NCBI GenBank assembly: GCA_015066635.1
Contig: SVOA01000003.1
Span: forward strand, 62,001 to 126,000
DNA: 64,000 nt
From: Oscillospiraceae bacterium
GTDB taxonomy: Bacteria; Bacillota; Clostridia; Oscillospirales; Acutalibacteraceae
Reading direction: 5' to 3'
In this document: in pieces, positions 11,729 to 63,689 of the stretch
Position numbering within the stretch: position 1 is the stretch's first letter
Layout of the letters: each line of letters starts with the position of its first letter
Notes under the pieces: generated by a model
What the model was told of the DNA's origin: nothing
Databases searched by the model: none
The model's input: only the letters and a program-made list of their open reading frames with translations
Program-made: the position numbers and the translations under genes

Positions 11729-14700
11729 TTAGTATTCGTTTCTCTTTTTTCTTATAAATACTATTGCGCAGATTATAAGTCCTGCGGCGGCAGGAATAAC
11801 GAAAATCACGGGGTCGAGATATATACCCGCTGTCTTAGGCGAACGGAATTTATCAACCGTACCGCTACCGCTTGCGCCGCCCGACGAAGTCGGTTCGTCC
11901 TTAATAATTGTGCCGTCCTGAATATTATTCTCAGCCGCTTCCTTGGCGGTAAGAGATTTGGCGATAGCAAATGAATCAACCTTTGTTGCAGTACCGTTAT
12001 CAACGGTATATGAGTCAAAGAAAAGCTTGTCGCCCTTAATCTGAATTGCGCTGAACATAGGAGAAACAGCGTCATAAATTACTTCTGCTCTCGGGAAAAG
12101 AGCGTCTGTTTCCGAACTGTCCTTGGGCTGATAGTATTTTACTCCCGAGCGACCGTCTATAGCGTAAATCGTGCCCGCAGGTTTAACCTTTGCGGTATAA
12201 GGAACGTTGTTATTAAAGATATTTGCCGTCTGAGTTTCAACAACAGCGTTATCCTTAATTACATTTGTTCTCAGATAAACGTGGTCGTGTCCCTGCAATA
12301 CAAGGTCAATTCCGAGCTCAGGCATAAGCGATGTCAACTGATTGCGAAGTCCTTTTATGTCGTCATCGTCAAAGTGATTTCCGTTTGAGTAAATTGCCTT
12401 GTGCAGAGAAACTATTTTCCAGTCAGCGTTGCTTGACTGAACATCGTTACGAAGCCAGTTAAGCTGTTTTTCGCTGAGTGTACCGTCATTATTAAGGTCG
12501 TTTGAATTAAGCACGGTAAAGTGAGCGTTATTATAGTCGTATGAATAATAAACTCCTGTTTCAAGATTCTGCTCGGGAACATTTGAGAGTATGTTATACT
12601 CCGTTACGGAGCTTTCGGAATTCTCGTGGTTACCTGCCGTGGGCATCATTACGGTTTTCATCAGATTGTCGGACGCCGTATTGAAAAGCCAGTTCCACTG
12701 CTTGAAATTAGTGCCCTTATCAACCTGATCTCCCGAGTGCATAATGAAAGCCGCATCGGGATACATTGAATACGCCGTATTAACCGTATCAGCCCATTTA
12801 CGGTACTGTCTTTCTATACCGCCCTGCGAATCTGTAAAGTGGAAAAAGGTAAACTCATTTGTATTATCGGCTGTATCAATAACACCTATATTGCTCCACC
12901 AGTTTCTTGCGGCGTCGCCGATTCTGTAGTAATACTTCTGACCTGGTTGAAGTCCCGTCAGTTTAATAATATGTCTGTTGATATTGAAGGTGTATTTCAG
13001 TATTCCGAAAATACCGAGATCAATGCCCGGATACTGTCTTGTAGTTCTCTGTGTTTGAGCTGATACACCCTTTGTGCTCGGAGTACCCGTAAAGTTCTTA
13101 TTGCTTCCTGCGGGTATAATTTCAATATCGGTACCCGTTACGCCGACCTTTGTAAACCAGCTGATATTTCTTGATGTAGCGGCGTCGTCGCCGAAGGTTA
13201 CGGAAATTCCCGAAGGAAGTCTTAAATCTTCTACCGTAGGAGTTACGGGTACCTTGCCGCTGTATGTGATTGTATTTTCAAGATCTGTCGGAAGTTTATC
13301 GGTTGTGAAATCATAAATAAAATTATAGAATTCATAAGCGATTGTTTCCATCTCAGAATCAGTTATATACTCATCAATGTAACTGTTTACAAGTTCTTCA
13401 AGAGAGCCGTAATCGGTTACGCCGAGGGCAAATATAACTGAAACAATATTACCCGCATCAAGCTTGGGTATAGAATTGTTGACGGGCTCGGCTACACCGA
13501 GAAGCGTACCAAGAACCGTATTAAGTATATCGTTCTTTGTGTCGTCGTTTATTGCACCGAGTATTCCGACGGGGTCTATCTGAATCGTAGGCAGAAGCTC
13601 ATCTTTAAGTATATCATTCATTACAATATCGTAAAGAGTATCAAAAATCTCCTGAGCGTTTTCTCCCCTGTAGAATCTGTCAAGTACGTCGTTGATAAAG
13701 GGATCGTCCGATCTGTTCTCGTCGCCGTAATACATATACGCGAGAACGGAAGCAACTGCATCACCGAAATTACCGTTTTTATTCGGGTTGCCGAAACCGA
13801 GAGTATCAATATACTTGGTACAGGGCTTGCTCGAAACCTCAACGGCGCATAGCTTGTCAAGCACCTTTCTGACAAGATTCAATGCGTTTTCAGGATTATC
13901 AATATATTTCTTCTGTAACTGTGCGCAAACAGATTTAAGCACAGCTTTAATTGCCGTCTTTGTAATGCCGTCCGCAGACCCGAGGTCCGTGTTTTTAAGC
14001 AGATTGCTTATTACGGAATCTATATCAAGCAGATTATCAAGGTAATTATATAACCCTGCCTCCTGAATTTCGGGACCGATAGACTGCGTAAGGAAATACT
14101 CGACATATCTCGTTCCGAAATCGGAAAGGTCTCCTCCGCCGTAATTAAGCGCATAGGCGGTGTATTTATACGGCTTAGGATAGGTTGTACCGAATGCCTC
14201 TATCTGTTTTGTATTATCTATTTCGTTTGTGCTGTACTGCATAGTGGTACTGCCATCCGTACCCTTTGAGAAAGTAACCGTTCTTGTGTAGTTCGGGAAA
14301 ACCTGAACAGAAGCGGTTGAGCAGTCAGTCATTGTTTCGCCGTTATCACTCGTCCACTGTGCAACATCGTGAAAATGAAGATGTCCGGTAAAAGCAAAGT
14401 GCATACCTGCATCGGCAAGCTTTTCGCATACCTCCTGCCAGTTATCAATAACAAATGCCTGCATTGTGTTGTCCTCGTGGTCATAGTGCTCAACTATATT
14501 GAAGTGAGTCATACCTATAACCTCAAGACCGTCTTCCTTTGCTTTTTTAATTTCATTTAAAGTCCACTCAAGAAGATCGTCCGAAAAAGCGCCTCTTGTT
14601 TCAGCTTCATTAAGACCTTTTGAGTGCATATCGCTGCTGTAGCAGGCACAGTCAAGCGCAATAAATCTGTAACCGCCGTCAAGAGTTGCGGCATAGGAAA

Positions 14701-15268
14701 GTTGACCTGCCTCATTACCCGCGGAAGGCGTAAAGAAGGAATCGGCAAGGTCATATCCGAGGTCTGCATATATATCCCTGAAGTCTTCAGGCTCACACCA
14801 CTTGGTCGGAACATACTTACCGTTAAGAAATCTTGTAGCGTTAGCTTTTCTTATATCGTGGTTACCGTTTATTACAAGAACCTGAATACCTGTTCTGTTC
14901 TCAAAATCTTTGAGTACCTTAGCGAGAGCAGTATGAGATTCATATTCACCATTACGTGCCATATCGCCGGGGATAAAAAGATATTTCATATTATTGGTCG
15001 CTGCCTGCGCTTCAAATTCAGCGAGCGCGGCGTCAATAAGCGCAGGAGTAAGATATGATGTGCTTGAATTGAGCTTGCAAGCGTCAATAAACTCGTTGAT
15101 ATCCGAGCCCATAAGGGTACGGGCATAGTAATGCGTGTCGGACATTACGCCGACTGTAATTTCATCCGTACCGACAGCAATGCCTGAGAAAAGTGTACCC
15201 GGAATCAATGAGCACACCATAATCAGAGTAACAATTACGGAAATAATCTTTGCAATTTTCCTTTTCAT
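11729..15268 (-). CDS. secreted, cell-surface protein with two metallophosphoesterase domains and a C-terminal membrane anchor
   Basis: 1179 aa; signal peptide; domain 1 motifs GVMSDTHYYA, IPGDMARNG, NGNHD, FTGHLHFHD; domain 2 motifs HSGDQVDKG, AGNHENSES, LQGHDHVYLR after a purple-acid-phosphatase-like lead-in (ITGLQPGQKYYYRIGD-like); C-terminal TM plus KKR tail. Confidence 0.85.
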   Translation of the reverse strand: MKRKIAKIISVIVTLIMVCSLIPGTLFSGIAVGTDEITVGVMSDTHYYARTLMGSDINEFIDACKLNSSTSYLTPALIDAALAEFEAQAATNNMKYLFIPGDMARNGEYESHTALAKVLKDFENRTGIQVLVINGNHDIRKANATRFLNGKYVPTKWCEPEDFRDIYADLGYDLADSFFTPSAGNEAGQLSYAATLDGGYRFIALDCACYSSDMHSKGLNEAETRGAFSDDLLEWTLNEIKKAKEDGLEVIGMTHFNIVEHYDHEDNTMQAFVIDNWQEVCEKLADAGMHFAFTGHLHFHDVAQWTSDNGETMTDCSTASVQVFPNYTRTVTFSKGTDGSTTMQYSTNEIDNTKQIEAFGTTYPKPYKYTAYALNYGGGDLSDFGTRYVEYFLTQSIGPEIQEAGLYNYLDNLLDIDSVISNLLKNTDLGSADGITKTAIKAVLKSVCAQLQKKYIDNPENALNLVRKVLDKLCAVEVSSKPCTKYIDTLGFGNPNKNGNFGDAVASVLAYMYYGDENRSDDPFINDVLDRFYRGENAQEIFDTLYDIVMNDILKDELLPTIQIDPVGILGAINDDTKNDILNTVLGTLLGVAEPVNNSIPKLDAGNIVSVIFALGVTDYGSLEELVNSYIDEYITDSEMETIAYEFYNFIYDFTTDKLPTDLENTITYSGKVPVTPTVEDLRLPSGISVTFGDDAATSRNISWFTKVGVTGTDIEIIPAGSNKNFTGTPSTKGVSAQTQRTTRQYPGIDLGIFGILKYTFNINRHIIKLTGLQPGQKYYYRIGDAARNWWSNIGVIDTADNTNEFTFFHFTDSQGGIERQYRKWADTVNTAYSMYPDAAFIMHSGDQVDKGTNFKQWNWLFNTASDNLMKTVMMPTAGNHENSESSVTEYNILSNVPEQNLETGVYYSYDYNNAHFTVLNSNDLNNDGTLSEKQLNWLRNDVQSSNADWKIVSLHKAIYSNGNHFDDDDIKGLRNQLTSLMPELGIDLVLQGHDHVYLRTNVIKDNAVVETQTANIFNNNVPYTAKVKPAGTIYAIDGRSGVKYYQPKDSSETDALFPRAEVIYDAVSPMFSAIQIKGDKLFFDSYTVDNGTATKVDSFAIAKSLTAKEAAENNIQDGTIIKDEPTSSGGASGSGTVDKFRSPKTAGIYLDPVIFVIPAAAGLIICAIVFIRKKRNEY

Positions 15269-53686: not shown

Positions 53687-55428
53687 TTATTTTGCTTTAA
53701 TTCTGAAAACTTCAACGCCGTGAGGCTTAACCTCGGCGCTTAATAAATTCTTTGCCGTAAAAGTATCCTTGCTCCACAAATCAAAGCATTCATATTCATC
53801 CGCGTCGGGCAGTCCCGTAAAGCCCTGATTGGCAAGCTCGGAAATACTTACCTGCACTTTTTTTACGCCCTTTGATTTATTAAAAAAGCATACGGCTATC
53901 TCATTATTTTCAAGAGGTTTAACAAGTATATCGGTAAAGAAGTTTGTTTTATAACGTCTGCACTGACTGCCTCTTTTGTCCTGATCGATGTCAATAAGGT
54001 CTTTATTTGTAAGTATCTGAAGGAATTTGTTGCTGTAATCGACACAGCCGTCCTTTGAAATAAAGGTTCTGACATCGTTACCTATAATAAGCGGAGCCGC
54101 CATCATACACCAGAGAGTAAAATGCGACTTATTCTCGTCAACCGTAAGTTGTCCGTTGCCGACCTCAAGCATATCGGGGTCGTTCCAGCCGCCCGGTCCC
54201 GCATATTCGTAAAGCTTGACATTATGCTCATAAATTGCGACAACCGAGGACCATATAGGTTTGATATCAAGGGTTGTCCTCCAGAGATTTCCCGCCTGAG
54301 CGCCCCATTTATACGGCTTGTTAAAGCCCCACTCGCATATCGAATAAACTATCGGTTTTTCCTCTGTTTTATGTTTTTTGGCATAGTTTTCCGTTGCACG
54401 TTTGAGTTCCTTGCCCATATTGATATACTGAAGCGCCGCACCGTCCATCTTTGAACCTACGGGATTTTTGATTTCAATGGTGTTATTTCCTTTTTCAAGG
54501 TCAATAAACAGCTGTACTCTGCCGAAGGCGCTGAACGCTCTTGTCGGCGGAACGGTAAACGGATATTCCTTTTCCCCGTTAACTGTCATTACGGCATATT
54601 TCTCGCCGCTGCTTTTTTTGCGGAAAACGACAGTAGCAATATATTCGCCCGACTTATCGACATTAACAAAGCTGAATTTAAGACTGCCGCCGTCCGAGTC
54701 AAGTCTGCCGACATAACTGCCCTTGCTGTCGCTGATGACCGCAGCCGTGCCGTCAAGTTCTCCGTTCTGAGCCTCAAGAATTATCTCCTGTTTTTTGTCC
54801 TTTGAGGAGATTATTATTTTGTCTATAACGGGAGCCTCGGAAGTAATCGGATGACTGTGGCAGAAATCGTATTTGAAATACTCAATGCCCCAATCGGCAA
54901 AGGTCTCTCGTCAATTCTTTCGTTACCGAGAGACGCGGGCAAATCCTCGCAGGTCAGCGTACCGTTTGAGGAATATATACCTGCCTTAAATCCTTTTGAA
55001 TTAAGCTTTTTAACAAGAGCTTTAATTCCGCTCGGAAATGCTGTCAGGTCGCCCTGAAGTCTGCCGTTCTCATCACGCAGGGAACTCTGCCAGCAGTCGT
55101 CAAGATTAACATAGCAGTATCCCGCGTCAAGCAAACCGCTCTTTTTCATAGCGTCCGCAACCTCAATGATAAGATTCTCATTGATATTGGGACCGAAAAG
55201 ATTCCAGCTTGACCATCCCATAGGCGGAGTCATAGCCGCATTATTACCGTACTTTTTTTCGGTCTTAATGTGTACCGTCGCTTTTGCGATGGCTTTTTTT
55301 ATATCGCACTCGGGACAGAAACTGTCCGTGCCTTTCTTTTTTGCAACAAACGCTGCAGCCGCAGTTCCCGCAACAATAACTCCTGCCGAAATGATTTTAC
55401 CAAGCATTGATTTCTCCTTATATAACAA
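53687..55428 (-). pseudogene. GH27 alpha-galactosidase interrupted by a -1 frameshift at about 54901-54912
   Basis: 5' ORF 54823-55428 reads MTPPMGWSSWNLFG...YCYVNLDDCWQ...AGIYSSNGTLTCEDLPASLGNERID; from 54904 the alternate frame continues without stops as TFADWGIEYFKYDFCHSH... into ORF 53687-54589 (YSICEWGFNKPYKWG...GGWNDPDMLEVGNG...WCMMAAPLIIGND). Confidence 0.87.
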
Positions 55429-55478
55429 AAGAGGATAAGCAAAGGAAACTTTACCTACCCTCCCGTTTTTAGTATGTA

Positions 55479-57746
55479 TTATTCCTCAGTTGCTTCTGCA
55501 ACGGCTTCTTCAACAGCCTCGGCTGTTTCCTCAGCGGCGTCTGCAACAGCTTCTGCAGCTTCCTCGACTGCTTCCGCAGGAGCTTCGGCAACTTCTTCTG
55601 CAGCTTCTTCAACTGCTTCGGCAGGAGCTTCGGCAACTTCTTCTGCTGCTTCCTCAACTGCTTCGGCGGGTGCTTCGGCAGCAGCCTCTGCTACCGACTC
55701 AACGCTTTCTGCCTCTGCGCCGTCAGCAACAACTTCCTGCTCGGTGGGCTCGGCAATTTCCTCAACTGCCGGAGGCTCAAGAAGCGCCTTAATGGAAAGG
55801 CTTACACGTTTCTTGTCAAAGTCCTCCTCAAGAATCTTGACGGTAACTTCCTGACCTTCTTTAAGTACATCCTTGGGGTCGTTGATGTGCTTATAGTCTA
55901 TTTCGGAAATATGAATAAGTCCGTCAATTCCGGGAATTATGTTTGCAAATGCGCCGAAGGTTGTAAGTCCGACAATCTTAACCTTAACTTCGGAGCCAAC
56001 GGGATAATCTCTTTTAAGGATTTCCCACGGGTTGTCCTCAACCTTTTTGAAGCCGAGTGAAATTTTCTTGTCTTCTTTATTGAGATTCTTAATATAAACC
56101 TCAACTGTGTCGCCTACATTGACAACCTCTGACGGATGCTTGATTCTGGTCCATGAAAGCTCGGATATATGAATCATACCGTCAACGCCGCCGATATCGA
56201 CAAATGCGCCGTACTTGGTAAGCGAACGTACTGTACCTGTATATTTCTGTCCTTCCTCTGCCTGAGCCCAGAACTGCTCAGCCTGCTCCTTGCGGAGATC
56301 TCTGTTGGCTGCCTTAATCGAGCCGACAACTCTTCTTCTCTTTTTGTCAACCTCGATAATCTTGAACTTAACGGTCTGTCCGACCATATCCTCAAGAGGC
56401 TCATTTCTGTTGAATCTTGAAAGAGATGCGGGAACAAATACGCGGATACCGTTGTACTGAACAAAAAGTCCCTTTGAATCGCCGACAACGGCAGTAACTT
56501 TACCCTCAACGGGCTCCTCTGTATTCTCGGCAAGGTCCTCCCATGATTTTGCGGCATCATAGCGCTTCTTGGAAAGCATAACCGTGCCTTCCGCGTCATT
56601 GGTCTTCATAATGATAAGATCAAGCTTATCGCCGACCTTGACTTCCTTAGTCATGTCAACTGAAGGATCATTGCTGTACTCGTCTGCGGGAATATAACCG
56701 GCGTGCTTTCTGCCGACTATCTCAACCTGAATCTCACCGGGAGTAACTGCGACAACTTCGCCCGTAACTCTCTGGTCAGAACTTTCGTCAATATATTCTT
56801 CAAGCATATCAGCAAAAGATTTATTCTCCGACACGGCTGACTCCTCCTTTACTGCATTTGCGTTTTCCTGAGTTTGTTCTAATTTTTCCGACATGGTTTT
56901 TATTACCTCCTTAATTATACCGTCGGGTGTCGATGCCCCGGCAGTAACACCGACTGAAGTAAAAACTGATAAATCAATTTCCGATAATTCTTCAGCGGTT
57001 TCGATCAGAAAGGTAGGACAGTTGGATTCACACACTGCTTTGAGCTTAGCCGTATTAGAACTTTGACGGCCGCCTATGATAATCATAGCATCGTTTTTAA
57101 GCGAAAGCTGAGTGGCTTCCTTTTGCCTTTCTTCTGTCGCACTGCATATTGTATCAAAAATAATCGCGTTTGTATAGATGTTTTTTATTATTTTTACGCA
57201 TTTTTCAAAACTTTTTATCGAAAAAGTAGTCTGTGCAACGAGAATTAGATGTTTTTTATCTAAATCGGGATGGTTTTCAATGATTTCATTGAGTTCGTCC
57301 TCGTTATTAAAGACGTAACTCTCGCCCTTGCAGTAACTTCTGATGCCTATAACCTCAGGGTGATTTTTGTCCCCCGCTATCAAGGTTACGCTATCGGGGT
57401 CGGAATTTTCGCCGACAGTTTTATGAATTTTCTGAACAAAGGGACAAGTAGCGTTACAAAAATCGGGAGAAATCTCTTTTACCTTTTCGAGAATTTCCTT
57501 TGTAACACCGTGAGTTCTGACGACTATGACGTCATTTTCGGAGCATTCCTCGGGACTTTCGATTATCCTGACTCCCCTGCTTTTAAAGTCCTCAATGACT
57601 TGCGGATTATGGATAATCGGTCCGAGAGTGCAAACCTTTTTACCCTCGTTTGTTAAACTGTCAAGAAGCTTTACCGCACGGTCAACGCCGAAGCAGAAGC
57701 CTGCCGTTTTTGCAAGTTCTATTCGTTGCAATGTCCTTCCTCCCAA
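55479..57746 (-). CDS. ispH-rpsA: bifunctional 4-hydroxy-3-methylbut-2-enyl diphosphate reductase / ribosomal protein S1
   Basis: 755 aa; IspH half (AKTAGFCFGVDRAV, GPIIHNPQVIEDF, TCPFVQKIH) fused to S1 repeats (GTVRSLTKYGAFVDIGGVDGMIHISELSW). TTG at 57731 is an alternative start. Confidence 0.93.
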   Translation of the reverse strand: MGGRTLQRIELAKTAGFCFGVDRAVKLLDSLTNEGKKVCTLGPIIHNPQVIEDFKSRGVRIIESPEECSENDVIVVRTHGVTKEILEKVKEISPDFCNATCPFVQKIHKTVGENSDPDSVTLIAGDKNHPEVIGIRSYCKGESYVFNNEDELNEIIENHPDLDKKHLILVAQTTFSIKSFEKCVKIIKNIYTNAIIFDTICSATEERQKEATQLSLKNDAMIIIGGRQSSNTAKLKAVCESNCPTFLIETAEELSEIDLSVFTSVGVTAGASTPDGIIKEVIKTMSEKLEQTQENANAVKEESAVSENKSFADMLEEYIDESSDQRVTGEVVAVTPGEIQVEIVGRKHAGYIPADEYSNDPSVDMTKEVKVGDKLDLIIMKTNDAEGTVMLSKKRYDAAKSWEDLAENTEEPVEGKVTAVVGDSKGLFVQYNGIRVFVPASLSRFNRNEPLEDMVGQTVKFKIIEVDKKRRRVVGSIKAANRDLRKEQAEQFWAQAEEGQKYTGTVRSLTKYGAFVDIGGVDGMIHISELSWTRIKHPSEVVNVGDTVEVYIKNLNKEDKKISLGFKKVEDNPWEILKRDYPVGSEVKVKIVGLTTFGAFANIIPGIDGLIHISEIDYKHINDPKDVLKEGQEVTVKILEEDFDKKRVSLSIKALLEPPAVEEIAEPTEQEVVADGAEAESVESVAEAAAEAPAEAVEEAAEEVAEAPAEAVEEAAEEVAEAPAEAVEEAAEAVADAAEETAEAVEEAVAEATEE
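55545..55679 (-). repeat. three tandem ~45-bp units encoding AEAPAEAVEEAAEEV in the S1 C-terminal tail
   Basis: Protein repeats AEAPAEAVEEAAEEV x2 then AEAPAEAVEEAAEAV; DNA copies near-identical. Confidence 0.85.
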
Positions 57747-58360
57747 AGCTCGGTAATTGCCTGCATTACCTTTGCAGACGCGTTTCGCAATTCTCTCGGA
57801 GAGTGCGCCTTTGTAAACTCAAATTCCCCGTTTTTGATAACCTTGCCGAAACGGACGGTCAGCTTTGTACCTATCTTAAATTCCTCGTCCGTATAAATCG
57901 AAACAGGCAGTAAATCTGCGTTTGTTTCGCGAAGTATCCACGCAACGCCCGACTTTCCTCTCGGAGCGGGCTTATATGTATGCTGACGCGTGCCCTCGGG
58001 GAATATACCGAAAGCGCCGCCCTGCTCAACAATTTTGCAGGAATAATTAACCGCGTCCATATCTCCGACGCCGCGTTCAATAGGAAATGAATTGAGCTTA
58101 ACAAGGATCTTAGCCGCAATTTTATTTTTATAAAGCTCTTTTTTTGCCATATAGTGAACGACTCTCGGGCAGGAATTAGATATAATGAAAGGGTCGAGAG
58201 CGTGCTGATGGTTACACGCAATAATCAGCGGACCGTCCTCGGGGATATTCTCCGTGCCGACATATGTAATTTTATACATATGCTTAAACACAAAGCTGAC
58301 AAGCCCTCTGATTTTATCATATGTACCCGACTGCGTTACTTTACTGTAATCAAAATACAC
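57719..58360 (-). CDS. plsC: 1-acyl-sn-glycerol-3-phosphate acyltransferase
   Basis: 213 aa; acyltransferase motifs NHQHALDPF and FPEGTRQ. Confidence 0.9.
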   Translation of the reverse strand: MYFDYSKVTQSGTYDKIRGLVSFVFKHMYKITYVGTENIPEDGPLIIACNHQHALDPFIISNSCPRVVHYMAKKELYKNKIAAKILVKLNSFPIERGVGDMDAVNYSCKIVEQGGAFGIFPEGTRQHTYKPAPRGKSGVAWILRETNADLLPVSIYTDEEFKIGTKLTVRFGKVIKNGEFEFTKAHSPRELRNASAKVMQAITELWEEGHCNE

Positions 58361-59038
58361 TTACATTTTCTCCTTAATCAGATTTACTACCGTTGAAATA
58401 GACTCCTCAAGCTTCATTTCGCTTGTATCGACAATAATGCTGTCCTCGGCAGGCTTGAGAGGCGCAATTTCTCTGTGGGAATCGTTATAGTCGCGTTCTT
58501 TAAGCTCTTTAAGAACTTTTTTATAGCTGTCCTTCGAGCCTTTCTGCTGAAGCTCAAGGAATCTTCTCTGCGCTCTGACCTCTGCCGAAGCAGTCAGAAA
58601 AATTTTTACCTGCGCATCGGGCAGAACAACCGTGGCAATATCCCTGCCGTCCATTATACAGCTGTTATTTTTTGCAATATCTCTCTGAGTGTCAAAGAGG
58701 AAATCTCTGACGCACTGAATTGCCGAGACGTTTGACGCCGCCATTGACGCGTCGGGAGTTCTTATCTCGTCGGAAACGTCCTCGCCGTTTAAGAAAACGT
58801 GCTGAACTCCGTCCTTGTGCTTCAGCTCAACGAGAGTGTCTTTAAGCATTTTTTTAACTGCTTTGGCGTCCTTTGAGTCAATTTTATTTCTCAGCGCATT
58901 TACGCCGACAGCCCTGTATAAAGCTCCTGTATCGACATAGATAAGACCGAGTTCCTTAGCCGCAGCCTTAGCAACGGTGCTTTTACCCGCACCGCCGGGT
59001 CCGTCAATCGCTACGTTTAAAACCTTCTTTTTAGCCAT
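58361..59038 (-). CDS. cmk: cytidylate kinase
   Basis: Start MAKKKVLNVAIDGPGGAGKSTVAK at 59038 (RBS AGGAGG); MDGRDIATVVLPDAQVKIFLTAS. Confidence 0.95.
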   Translation of the reverse strand: MAKKKVLNVAIDGPGGAGKSTVAKAAAKELGLIYVDTGALYRAVGVNALRNKIDSKDAKAVKKMLKDTLVELKHKDGVQHVFLNGEDVSDEIRTPDASMAASNVSAIQCVRDFLFDTQRDIAKNNSCIMDGRDIATVVLPDAQVKIFLTASAEVRAQRRFLELQQKGSKDSYKKVLKELKERDYNDSHREIAPLKPAEDSIIVDTSEMKLEESISTVVNLIKEKM

Positions 59039-59822
59039 AGTAATCCTCCTGTTTCTTTTCATAGCAGAATACGGTAATCTGATGCTTTAATCTGAAATTA
59101 CCGTCGGTTTTTTTTCGGAGCATTTCAAGATGCTCTTCCGAAAAGGCGTCTACCTCTTTTTTACTTAATGACGGCTCTATTCCCCTGCACGCAATCATAC
59201 GCCCGTTCCAGCTTTCGCGTGTAAAAGGAATAAAACAGTCGAATTCAATATATCTTTTATCCGTAAAGTAATCTTCAGAAACGGAAATATCGTTTTCTTC
59301 AAGCCGTTTTCCGAAGCAGTCCCAGTCGGGATTGTATTTTTTTACAAGTTCAAGGGAATTCTTAATAATACCGTCCTCCTCGGGAAGCCACTGCATATAT
59401 GCAATTATCAGCTTACCGCGGGGCTTTAAAACTCTGTAAATCTCGGGAACTGTTTTCTCCTTGTCAAAATATCTCCAGCACTGAACAGCGCTGACACAGT
59501 CAAAGCTGCTGTCATCAAACGGCAGTTTCTCGGCTGAAGAAACACAATAGGAAATATTCATCCCCTTTGAAAGTTCACGGGCCTTAATAATCTGGTTTTC
59601 TGAAATATCGGCGCCGTAAAGTTCTCCGCCGTATTTGTACATAAATCGGGGAATTACGCCCGTTCCCGTGCCTGTATCAAGGCATTTTGTCCCTTTTTCG
59701 GCAAAGCCGAGAGAGCGTAATAATTCATACATTTCCTCAGGATAAATATCGCGGAATTTTGCATAATCGTCCGACGATTTTCCCCAGTTAAATTCTTTGC
59801 CGTTGTCTATAAGTGTTTTCAT
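59031..59822 (-). CDS. class I SAM-dependent methyltransferase
   Basis: ATG at 59822 (MKTLIDNGKEFNWGKSS); CLDTGTGTGVIPRFM, FDCVSAVQCWRYFD. Confidence 0.85.
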   Translation of the reverse strand: MKTLIDNGKEFNWGKSSDDYAKFRDIYPEEMYELLRSLGFAEKGTKCLDTGTGTGVIPRFMYKYGGELYGADISENQIIKARELSKGMNISYCVSSAEKLPFDDSSFDCVSAVQCWRYFDKEKTVPEIYRVLKPRGKLIIAYMQWLPEEDGIIKNSLELVKKYNPDWDCFGKRLEENDISVSEDYFTDKRYIEFDCFIPFTRESWNGRMIACRGIEPSLSKKEVDAFSEEHLEMLRKKTDGNFRLKHQITVFCYEKKQEDYYG

Positions 59823-59823
59823 A

Positions 59824-61050
59824 TCAGTTGTTTCCTGCAACATAGCCCGTCGAAAACGCTATTTGCAGATTATATCCTCCGGTATAGGCGTCAACGTCAA
59901 TGACTTCGCCTGCAAAATACAGTCCCCTGCAAAGCTTGGACTCCATTGTCTTTGGGTTGATTTCCTTACAGTTTACGCCGCCGCAGGTAATGACCGCCTC
60001 CTCAATGGGACGAAAGTCAAGCACGGTCAGTTTCATATTCTTTACGGTGTAAACAAGTCTTTGGCGTTCCTCTCTCGTAAGCTGATTGCATTTGACCGAG
60101 GGCTTTACGCCCGACAGCTTGATAACGGGATTTATTATCGCCCTGGGAAGCAGAAGTCCGAGCGAATTTGACAGAGCCTTATTGCTGTTTTCAAGCAAAT
60201 CGCGCTGAAGTCTTGCGTCAAGCTTGTCCGTATCAAGCGCAGGTTTAAGGTCAATATATATCTCATATCTGCCCTTTTCCATAGCGTCCATATGAGCGCT
60301 TGCGGACAGTATCATCGGTCCCGAAACGCCGAAATGTGTAAAGAGCATTTCGCCGAAGTCATCATAAATCTGTTTACCGTTTTTTGTGTCAATAACTCTA
60401 ATCGCGACATTTCTGAGCGACAGTCCCATAGCCTCGCTGCAGAAGCCCTCACGGCAGACAAGAGCCACAAGAGAAGGTCTCGGCGCAATTATGCTGTGCC
60501 CCGCCTGAACCGCAAAATCGTATCCGTCTCCCGTTGAGCCCGTTTTTGAGTACGATTTTCCGCCCGTAGCGACAATTACCCTGTCCGCAAAGAATTCTGC
60601 GCCCTCTTTGGTTTTGACTCCGAGCACTCTGCCGTCCTTTATTATAAGACTTTTAACAACGGCGTTTATAAATTTAACACCGTTTTGCTTTATAAATCTG
60701 TCAAGTGCTTTAACTATATCCGAAGCCTTATCGCTCTGCGGAAACACTCTGTTTCCCCTCTCAACCTTCAGAGGCACACCGAGACCTTCAAAAAGATTAA
60801 CGGTATCCGCGGTTGAGAATTCACTGAAAGCGCTGTACAGAAACCTTCCGTTATGGGAAATATTGCGAATAAGCTCGTCGGTATCGGGCTGATTATTGGT
60901 AACGTTGCATCTGCCTTTACCCGTAATCATTACCTTGCGTCCGACTCTGTCGTTTTTGTCAATGAGCAAGACTTCATTACCGTTTTTTGCACAGAAGCCC
61001 GCTGCTATACAGCCTGCTGCACCCGCGCCGACAACTATGACCTTACTCAT
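59824..61050 (-). CDS. NAD(P)/FAD-dependent oxidoreductase, HI0933/BaiN-like flavoprotein
   Basis: 408 aa; VVGAGAAGCIAAGFCAKNG, MITGKGRCNVTN, GLYFAGEVIDVDAYTGGYNLQIAFSTGYVAG. Confidence 0.9.
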   Translation of the reverse strand: MSKVIVVGAGAAGCIAAGFCAKNGNEVLLIDKNDRVGRKVMITGKGRCNVTNNQPDTDELIRNISHNGRFLYSAFSEFSTADTVNLFEGLGVPLKVERGNRVFPQSDKASDIVKALDRFIKQNGVKFINAVVKSLIIKDGRVLGVKTKEGAEFFADRVIVATGGKSYSKTGSTGDGYDFAVQAGHSIIAPRPSLVALVCREGFCSEAMGLSLRNVAIRVIDTKNGKQIYDDFGEMLFTHFGVSGPMILSASAHMDAMEKGRYEIYIDLKPALDTDKLDARLQRDLLENSNKALSNSLGLLLPRAIINPVIKLSGVKPSVKCNQLTREERQRLVYTVKNMKLTVLDFRPIEEAVITCGGVNCKEINPKTMESKLCRGLYFAGEVIDVDAYTGGYNLQIAFSTGYVAGNN

Positions 61051-61918
61051 CGGTTAATTCCTCTTCTTTTTCGTAAACCTGATATTTATCCCAGATATTC
61101 TCGAGTTTATTGAAGTTATTGTAAACCTCGTCCTTTTTGCTCAGAGTAACGCTGACTATCAGCGCATTGATAAGACTCAGCGGAGCGACAAGCGAATCTA
61201 CAACGCTCGCCATATTACTGCGCGCCGCAAGCAAATAGTCCGAATAAGGCGCCATGGGAGAATCTTCGGTATCGGTTATGGAAATAACGGTGGCGTTTCT
61301 GTCGTGAATAAAATTCAGCGCGTTGACCGTCTGTCTTGAATATCTCGGGAAACTGATAGCTATGCAGACATCTCCCTCGCCTATTCTGAACATCTGTTCA
61401 AAAAGTTCGGAAGCGCTCGAGGTATCGACAAGAACTACACCGTCAAAGACAAGATTAAGATAAAATGACAGAAAAGAAGCCAGAGCCGCGGAAGAACGCA
61501 CGCCTAAAATATAAATTTTCTTTGCGTTGTTAATGGCGTTAACCGCATTTTTGAAATCATCCTTTGAGGTCATTTCGGCGGTTTCCCTTATAAGCTCTAT
61601 ATCCTTGGTAAGAACGCTTCTGATAACGTCATTATCGCCTATAAGATTCTCGGAAACCTCCATACGCTGAACTGCCGTCAGCTTTGACTTAATCATCTGC
61701 TGAAGCTCCTTCTGAAGCTCGGGATAGCCTTTAAAGCCGAGTTCACACGCAAAGCGAACAACGGTCGATTCGCTGACACCGACGTTTTTGCCAAGAGTCG
61801 CCGCGGTCATAAACGCCGCCTTGTCATAATTCTGCAGTATGTAAGCCGAGATTTTTTTATGTCCCTTTGAAAGCTTTACCGTATTGTTTTCAAGTTTTGA
61901 TAAAAGATTGTTTTTCAA
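61043..61918 (-). CDS. MurR/RpiR family transcriptional regulator
   Basis: 291 aa; N-terminal HTH (LGKNVGVSESTVVRFACELGFKGYPELQKEL), SIS domain (ILGVRSSAALASFLSFYL). Confidence 0.9.
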   Translation of the reverse strand: MKNNLLSKLENNTVKLSKGHKKISAYILQNYDKAAFMTAATLGKNVGVSESTVVRFACELGFKGYPELQKELQQMIKSKLTAVQRMEVSENLIGDNDVIRSVLTKDIELIRETAEMTSKDDFKNAVNAINNAKKIYILGVRSSAALASFLSFYLNLVFDGVVLVDTSSASELFEQMFRIGEGDVCIAISFPRYSRQTVNALNFIHDRNATVISITDTEDSPMAPYSDYLLAARSNMASVVDSLVAPLSLINALIVSVTLSKKDEVYNNFNKLENIWDKYQVYEKEEELTDE

Positions 61919-61996
61919 AAAATCAAGTCCTTAAAATCAGTTTTCAACTATTATATGCCAAAATGAATTTTTTTGCAAGAAATCTTGCAAAATTTA

Positions 61997-63172
61997 TTAT
62001 TCTTTTATAATTTTAAAGCTTTCTTCCGTACCGCTCGGTCTCGGGTTTTTGAGTATAATCGAGTGGATATCGGACGCCTTTGCCTCAAGAGAAAAAACTC
62101 TGTCGGCGCCAGCGCTGCCGATTTTTTCAAAATCTCTGTACGAAACGGCAACGGGCAGTCCCGACGCGCTTACAAGACTTCTGTAAACGTTTATTTTATC
62201 CTGTTTAAAGCCGAGCACCCTGACATAAGGCGCAGGAATTTTTATATCGTCATTTGTAATTCCGAAATAACTGCAAAGCACGGCACGTCTTATTCTTGAG
62301 TGAGTATATCGTTTGGTTTTAAGTATTTCAAAGAGTTCGGTGGCGTTAAGAGCAGAGCCCGCATATTTAATAACCCTGTTAAACAGTTCCTCTGTCATAT
62401 ATGCGGTTTTGCGGAAGTACTCCTCTTTTCTTTTGCGTAGCTCCGACATCAGAAGCAGAGAATACTTCTCATAATCGCAGTACTCTCCCGACGAAACGGC
62501 AGATGAAAGAATTTCATTTACGTTTGCAGGCACAAAAGCGGAAAAGCCGTTATTCTCCGTAATCATTTTTCTGATATTTGAAGCCGAAGTAAAGCCGTCC
62601 TTCATTTCGTCTGTATCGTGCGCGGCATTTTTCCTCTTAACGGGTATTATCTTAACATCGGGGTAATTTTTAATAACTGCCTTTGTATAGGCAACGGCAA
62701 GTATGTTATTCGGTAAGCTCAAATCAAAGTTAATTCCGAAGTCAGAAAAAGCCTTTTGACGCGCGGCAGGGAAGCTTTCGTTCTGACAAAGGTATTTTTC
62801 AACCCTCTCGCAGAACTCAGGCGAACCGAGCGTTACGGCGGCATTTATAATCGCGTCTCTGTTTCCGTCCTCTACCCCGAAAGCAATACTGTCGCAGCCG
62901 AATTCGCATAGAATTCTCACAGCATTTTCCGCAAAGCACTCCGTACTTCCCACAGCGTAGAGAAACGGGAGTTCAAGCACTGCGTCTATACCGCCCGCAA
63001 GAGCCGTGCGTGTTTTGGTCTGCTTTGTAAAAAGCGATGGCTCTGCTCTCTGAACAAAGTTTCCGCTCATAACGCAGACTACGGTATCCCCGTCTTTTCT
63101 GACGGAGTCTATAAGGTATTTATGCCCGTTGTGAAACGGGTTAAATTCGCTGACTATACCTATAACGCTCAT
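61997..63172 (-). CDS. tmcAL: tRNA(Met) cytidine acetate ligase-like nucleotidyltransferase
   Basis: Start MSVIGIVSEFNPFHNGHKYLI at 63172; MSGNFVQRAEPSLFTKQTKTRTALAGGIDAVLELP. Confidence 0.9.
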   Translation of the reverse strand: MSVIGIVSEFNPFHNGHKYLIDSVRKDGDTVVCVMSGNFVQRAEPSLFTKQTKTRTALAGGIDAVLELPFLYAVGSTECFAENAVRILCEFGCDSIAFGVEDGNRDAIINAAVTLGSPEFCERVEKYLCQNESFPAARQKAFSDFGINFDLSLPNNILAVAYTKAVIKNYPDVKIIPVKRKNAAHDTDEMKDGFTSASNIRKMITENNGFSAFVPANVNEILSSAVSSGEYCDYEKYSLLLMSELRKRKEEYFRKTAYMTEELFNRVIKYAGSALNATELFEILKTKRYTHSRIRRAVLCSYFGITNDDIKIPAPYVRVLGFKQDKINVYRSLVSASGLPVAVSYRDFEKIGSAGADRVFSLEAKASDIHSIILKNPRPSGTEESFKIIKE

Positions 63173-63173
63173 T

Positions 63174-63689
63174 TTATAGCTCCCTTCCCGTGATTTTCCA
63201 CTCAGCTGCAAGTTCTTCAAAGGAATATGCGGCATTTGCGGGACTTGTTGAGGGTAAAACGGTTATCTCTCTGCCTGTTTTTTCAAGGCAGTACTTATTA
63301 TACAGATTCCCCGCAAGCCTGCCGTTTGCAAAAACACGCGAAACCGAACTGTTATCGAGAATAATGCCAATATCGTTTGCCGTAACATTCCGTACGGAAG
63401 CGTCCGAGGAGTTTTCAATTTCACAGCTTTTTATAACGTCCCACAGCGCAATTTTATTATTTAAAAGAAATTTCTTTTTATCTTCAATACTTAAGGGCGT
63501 ATCTTCGCCGCAAATCTCCGCCATAACGCGCCAGAAACGGTTTCTCGGGTGTCCGTAATAAAAACCCTGTTCCCTTGACTTAACCGAAGGAAACGAGCCT
63601 AAAATCAGTATTTTACTGTCGCCCGAAAAGACGGGTTCAAAATTATGCACAAGCATTTCTCTCATTTTATTTTTACTCTCAATTAACAA
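63174..63689 (-). CDS. DNA-deoxyinosine glycosylase (uracil-DNA glycosylase superfamily); exact start uncertain
   Basis: 171 aa; ILILGSFPSVKSREQGFYYGHPRNRFWRV, LPSTSPANAAYS. Confidence 0.85.
   Translation of the reverse strand: MLIESKNKMREMLVHNFEPVFSGDSKILILGSFPSVKSREQGFYYGHPRNRFWRVMAEICGEDTPLSIEDKKKFLLNNKIALWDVIKSCEIENSSDASVRNVTANDIGIILDNSSVSRVFANGRLAGNLYNKYCLEKTGREITVLPSTSPANAAYSFEELAAEWKITGREL

Follow-up and report, generated by a model that had tools for sequence, protein, structure and literature searches.

A one-base deficit interrupts an otherwise intact GH27 alpha-galactosidase gene in a draft Oscillospiraceae genome

In the draft genome of an Oscillospiraceae bacterium the gene for a GH27 alpha-galactosidase is split between two frames on the minus strand, the second frame being -1 relative to the first (ORF1), as read from the open reading frames of the window (the whole stretch of 64,000 nucleotides of contig SVOA01000003.1 analyzed here). 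The lesion, a deficit of one base, is real in the sequence as given; it is ordinary in kind and involves no new mechanism. Judged by sequence comparison, the interrupted gene is the ordinary vertical orthologue of a membrane-anchored alpha-galactosidase that is nearly universal in the genus. We give an even chance to the lesion being a consensus (sequencing or assembly) error, with the whole gene present in the living organism, and consider this slightly more likely than a real mutation; the gap between the two is a matter of judgement, not of measurement.

Organization of the split gene

ORF1 begins with an ATG at 55407 preceded by an AAGGAG site (the start assigned by the ORF finder was TTG 55428) and ends with the TAG at 54825-54823. 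It encodes a membrane-anchor-like N-terminus and the beginning of the barrel as far as LPASLGNERID, followed by about 28 out-of-frame residues before the stop. The second frame contains the nucleophile strand YFKYDFC and the acid/base region WRTTLDI and is closed by a TAA ending at 53687. The initial annotation had placed the stop of the first frame at 54823 and the end of the second at 53687, and both coordinates hold. Since the two open frames overlap by only 88 bases (54910-54823), the change of frame must fall within this segment. The elements of the split gene are:

54823..55407, minus strand: GH27 N-terminal ORF (ORF1), 194 codons from ATG, Melibiase_2 profile positions 1-118
53687..54910, minus strand: GH27 C-terminal open frame with YFKYDFC, CBM35-like insertion, WRTTLDI, Melibiase_C and TAA
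54911..54913, minus strand: TGA closing the second frame upstream
54907..54910 (approximate), minus strand: point at which one base is lacking, between the codons for I-D and those for E-T-F, from codon comparison with 75 related loci
54458..54778, minus strand: CBM35-like stretch inside the catalytic domain (second frame, residues 44-150)

The TAA of the GH27 gene (53689-53687, minus strand) lies one base from an ATG (53685-53683), the putative start of a downstream MtaB-like gene, and this spacing suggests that the two genes may be translationally coupled.

Family assignment and catalytic residues

The Pfam matches agree with the GH27 family proposed from the sequence in the initial annotation. 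ORF1 corresponds to positions 1-118 of the Melibiase_2 profile, and the second frame to positions 135-284 and to Melibiase_C, all above the curated cut-offs; as the matches cover complementary parts of the profile, the two frames represent two parts of one GH27 gene. Both expected catalytic Asp regions are found in the second frame, FKYDFC (KYD, strand 4) and WRTTLDI (RTTxDI, after strand 5), and the candidate residues, D177 and D378 in the related protein L032, do not vary among the relatives. The catalytic role of these two residues is assigned from the GH27 family. Domains and catalytic Asp residues are thus those of a GH27 enzyme; the single continuous frame seen in all relatives read is absent from the window copy. 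GH27 alpha-D-galactosidases have an Asp at a key specificity position (PMC4598101), and the LDDCW motif of the window gene, compared by motif and not by superposition, is consistent with an Asp of this type. The enzyme shares with the GH27 alpha-galactosidases of rice (1UAS) and Nicotiana (6F4C) the barrel, both catalytic Asp regions and the C-terminal sandwich, and differs from them by the one-base lesion in the window copy, a CBM35-like module between barrel strands 4 and 5 and the membrane-anchor-like N-terminus.

CBM35-like module within the catalytic barrel

Pfam places the CBM35-like module between both halves of Melibiase_2, with 26 bits for the window copy, just under the curated cut-off of 28, and 29.2 bits for an intact relative (L003). 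In the structural model of L032 (pLDDT 87.7) a beta-sandwich formed by residues 190-311 is located between the barrel strands 173-177 and 351-355, so that in this GH27 group the CBM35-like sandwich is predicted to sit inside the catalytic barrel, between strands 4 and 5. The best-matching solved GH27 structures in a fold search with the same model, of about 360-470 residues, gave TMt values up to 0.91 and TMq of about 0.6; being well covered themselves while the query is poorly covered, they appear to be devoid of the insert. The inserted architecture is widespread in this group of Clostridia, and no GH27 enzyme with an inserted CBM35 was described in the literature searched, which comprised open-licence papers alone and is weak evidence on this point. 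A CBM35 within the catalytic module is also a feature of cycloisomaltooligosaccharide glucanotransferase (GH66). This enzyme (PDB 3WNN, 3WNK) is a weak structural match that appears low in the fold search, and it belongs to a different family and has no frameshift.

Position of the lesion

At the lesion point the 75 related loci, which include a few genomes counted twice via two collections, encode Asp-Ala-Glu/Asp-Thr-Phe or a variant keeping Asp-Ala, and are uninterrupted over the whole frame. In comparison with them the window copy is one base short between its Asp and Glu codons, which bears out the single-base deficit against an expected D-A-E-T-F suggested by the initial annotation. The base re-read there, 54904, is where a homology-free scan of coding potential, based on codon-pair usage, puts the frame switch, but the relatives place the deficit itself 3 to 6 bases away (about 54910-54907). 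The split cannot be attributed to chance, because the related loci read straight through and the scan marks 54904 independently of them. The site is not part of a homopolymer run and contains a short GAGAGA tract.

The gene in related genomes

Thirty-eight further genomes of the genus were compared. The long GH27 gene is present in 36 of them, always as a single open frame of some 574-671 codons that no stop interrupts, and is missing from G011 and G030, which are only 75-76% complete. Among 250 genomes drawn from the family all full-length matches were open, and the partial ones were mostly a shorter paralogue without the insert or were located at contig ends. Two other partial matches were a second copy in G046, broken into several frames, and one in G123 that contains stops. 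The two-ORF layout, which if carried by all orthologues would have refuted the initial annotation by its own terms, was seen in none of the 36 same-genus genomes and none of the 75 related loci. No second genome of the same species was found, the closest relative compared being 66% identical.

The window gene departs from only one of 181 columns invariant in the genus (intact sisters from 0 to 4) and has one lesion, in agreement with the earlier view that the rest of the gene is undamaged. Its mean identity to outgroups, 0.511, falls within the genus range of 0.497-0.532. The gene order tmcAL-like, rpiR-like, flavoprotein, cmk, plsC, ispH-S1, GH27 (neighbours named by eye from sequence) was kept with small variations in 10 of 10 relatives inspected; the gene for an anchored alpha-galactosidase thereby follows a cluster of the housekeeping genes cmk, plsC and ispH-S1, with ispH-S1 as its immediate neighbour (window 53687-63235, minus strand). 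With gene order, conserved columns and outgroup identity all normal, the gene is the vertical orthologue and was under selection until very recently or still is.

In genome G046, from another genus of the same family, a second copy of the GH27-CBM35 type (L143, on contig C17) is broken into several frames and represents a decaying paralogue. An old pseudogene was rejected for the window copy, which, unlike this multiply broken gene, has a single lesion and one changed invariant column, and the conserved gene order together with the intact conserved columns likewise led us to reject a long-decayed or recently imported copy.

Origin of the lesion

If the lesion is a consensus error, the draft genome (38 contigs) would have lost one base at about 54910-54907 while the gene itself is whole. 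This reading is favoured because the 36 same-genus genomes, the 75 related loci and the family matches all have one open frame, and because conserved columns and a mid-range identity to outgroups indicate that selection has maintained the gene until now. Public assemblies contain many genes whose frameshifts or internal stops are artefacts, depending on coverage, platform and assembler (Cooley & Wright 2024, PMC11017572); the window gene resembles such spurious pseudogenes in being a conserved gene, intact apart from one frameshift, and differs in that its lesion is a candidate spurious one only.

Against an error stand the position of the lesion outside a homopolymer run and the quality of the assembly. 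The coding-potential scan, which recovered 71 of 101 random single-base deletions in long genes (sensitivity of about 70%), was applied to a sample of stretches making up about 292 kb (17%) of this genome and detected no other comparable frame switch in them. It gave seven candidates, of which only 54904, with 315 bases to the next start, stands out. Five others, each 38-48 bases away from a start codon, resemble ordinary gene starts by this distance alone, and the one at 13292 on the plus strand of the window is antisense to an intact gene of 1179 codons. The latter (window 11729-15268, minus strand) encodes a secreted, membrane-anchored protein with seemingly two metallophosphoesterase-like parts, as judged by eye. 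With no second lesion in the stretches scanned the assembly is not visibly poor. A single event cannot fix a rate.

Somewhat below an even chance stands a real and very recent one-base deletion through which the sequenced strain or population has lost the function of the gene, with a distant second GH27 perhaps covering part of the need. A lone lesion without follow-up decay has the look of a fresh null allele, an intact GH27-like gene of 432 aa is present on contig C18 of the same genome, and the broken copy in G046 demonstrates that such genes can be lost. The C18 paralogue, however, shares only about 33% identity within the matched part, which makes the redundancy putative, and the near-universal presence of the whole long gene, absent only from two incomplete genomes, suggests that its loss is costly.

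Programmed -1 ribosomal frameshifting, by which both frames would yield the full enzyme, is very improbable. The 88-base overlap and the order of the frames are correct for a -1 shift, but neither the overlap nor the bases immediately preceding it contain an X_XXY_YYZ heptamer, whose absence had been noted earlier; the predicted pseudoknot-free RNA fold is ordinary (z -0.97, with 29 of 200 shuffles folding equally well); and split orthologues are missing from the genus, from the related loci and from the full-length family matches. The preference of the initial annotation for a fresh mutation or an assembly error over programmed frameshifting is thereby upheld.

We assign an equally slight probability to a phase-variable switch in which the tract reversibly gains or loses a base within the population. 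The GAGAGA tract at the site speaks for it, yet slipped-strand switching usually needs more than three dinucleotide repeats, gain or loss of one such repeat would not produce a one-base change in length, and the tract is not a conserved feature of the relatives. A non-canonical -1 recoding by which this species alone would produce a certain amount of full-length enzyme is less probable still, and internal restart was rejected, as the earliest ATG/GTG/TTG of the second frame (54589) lies well downstream of the nucleophile.

Implications

If the base is truly missing, translation would end at 54823 with a product of 194 residues devoid of the nucleophile, the acid/base residue, the CBM35-like module and the C-terminal domain, which would be inactive; if the GH27 and MtaB-like genes are coupled, the premature stop could lower the expression of the latter too. 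In itself the lesion is of little importance, an error and a recent null mutation both being ordinary. An automatic pipeline would annotate a pseudogene or two partial genes at this locus, though a functional alpha-galactosidase may well exist in the species, and without reads the assembly is no basis for counting the use of alpha-galactosides among the losses of this genome.
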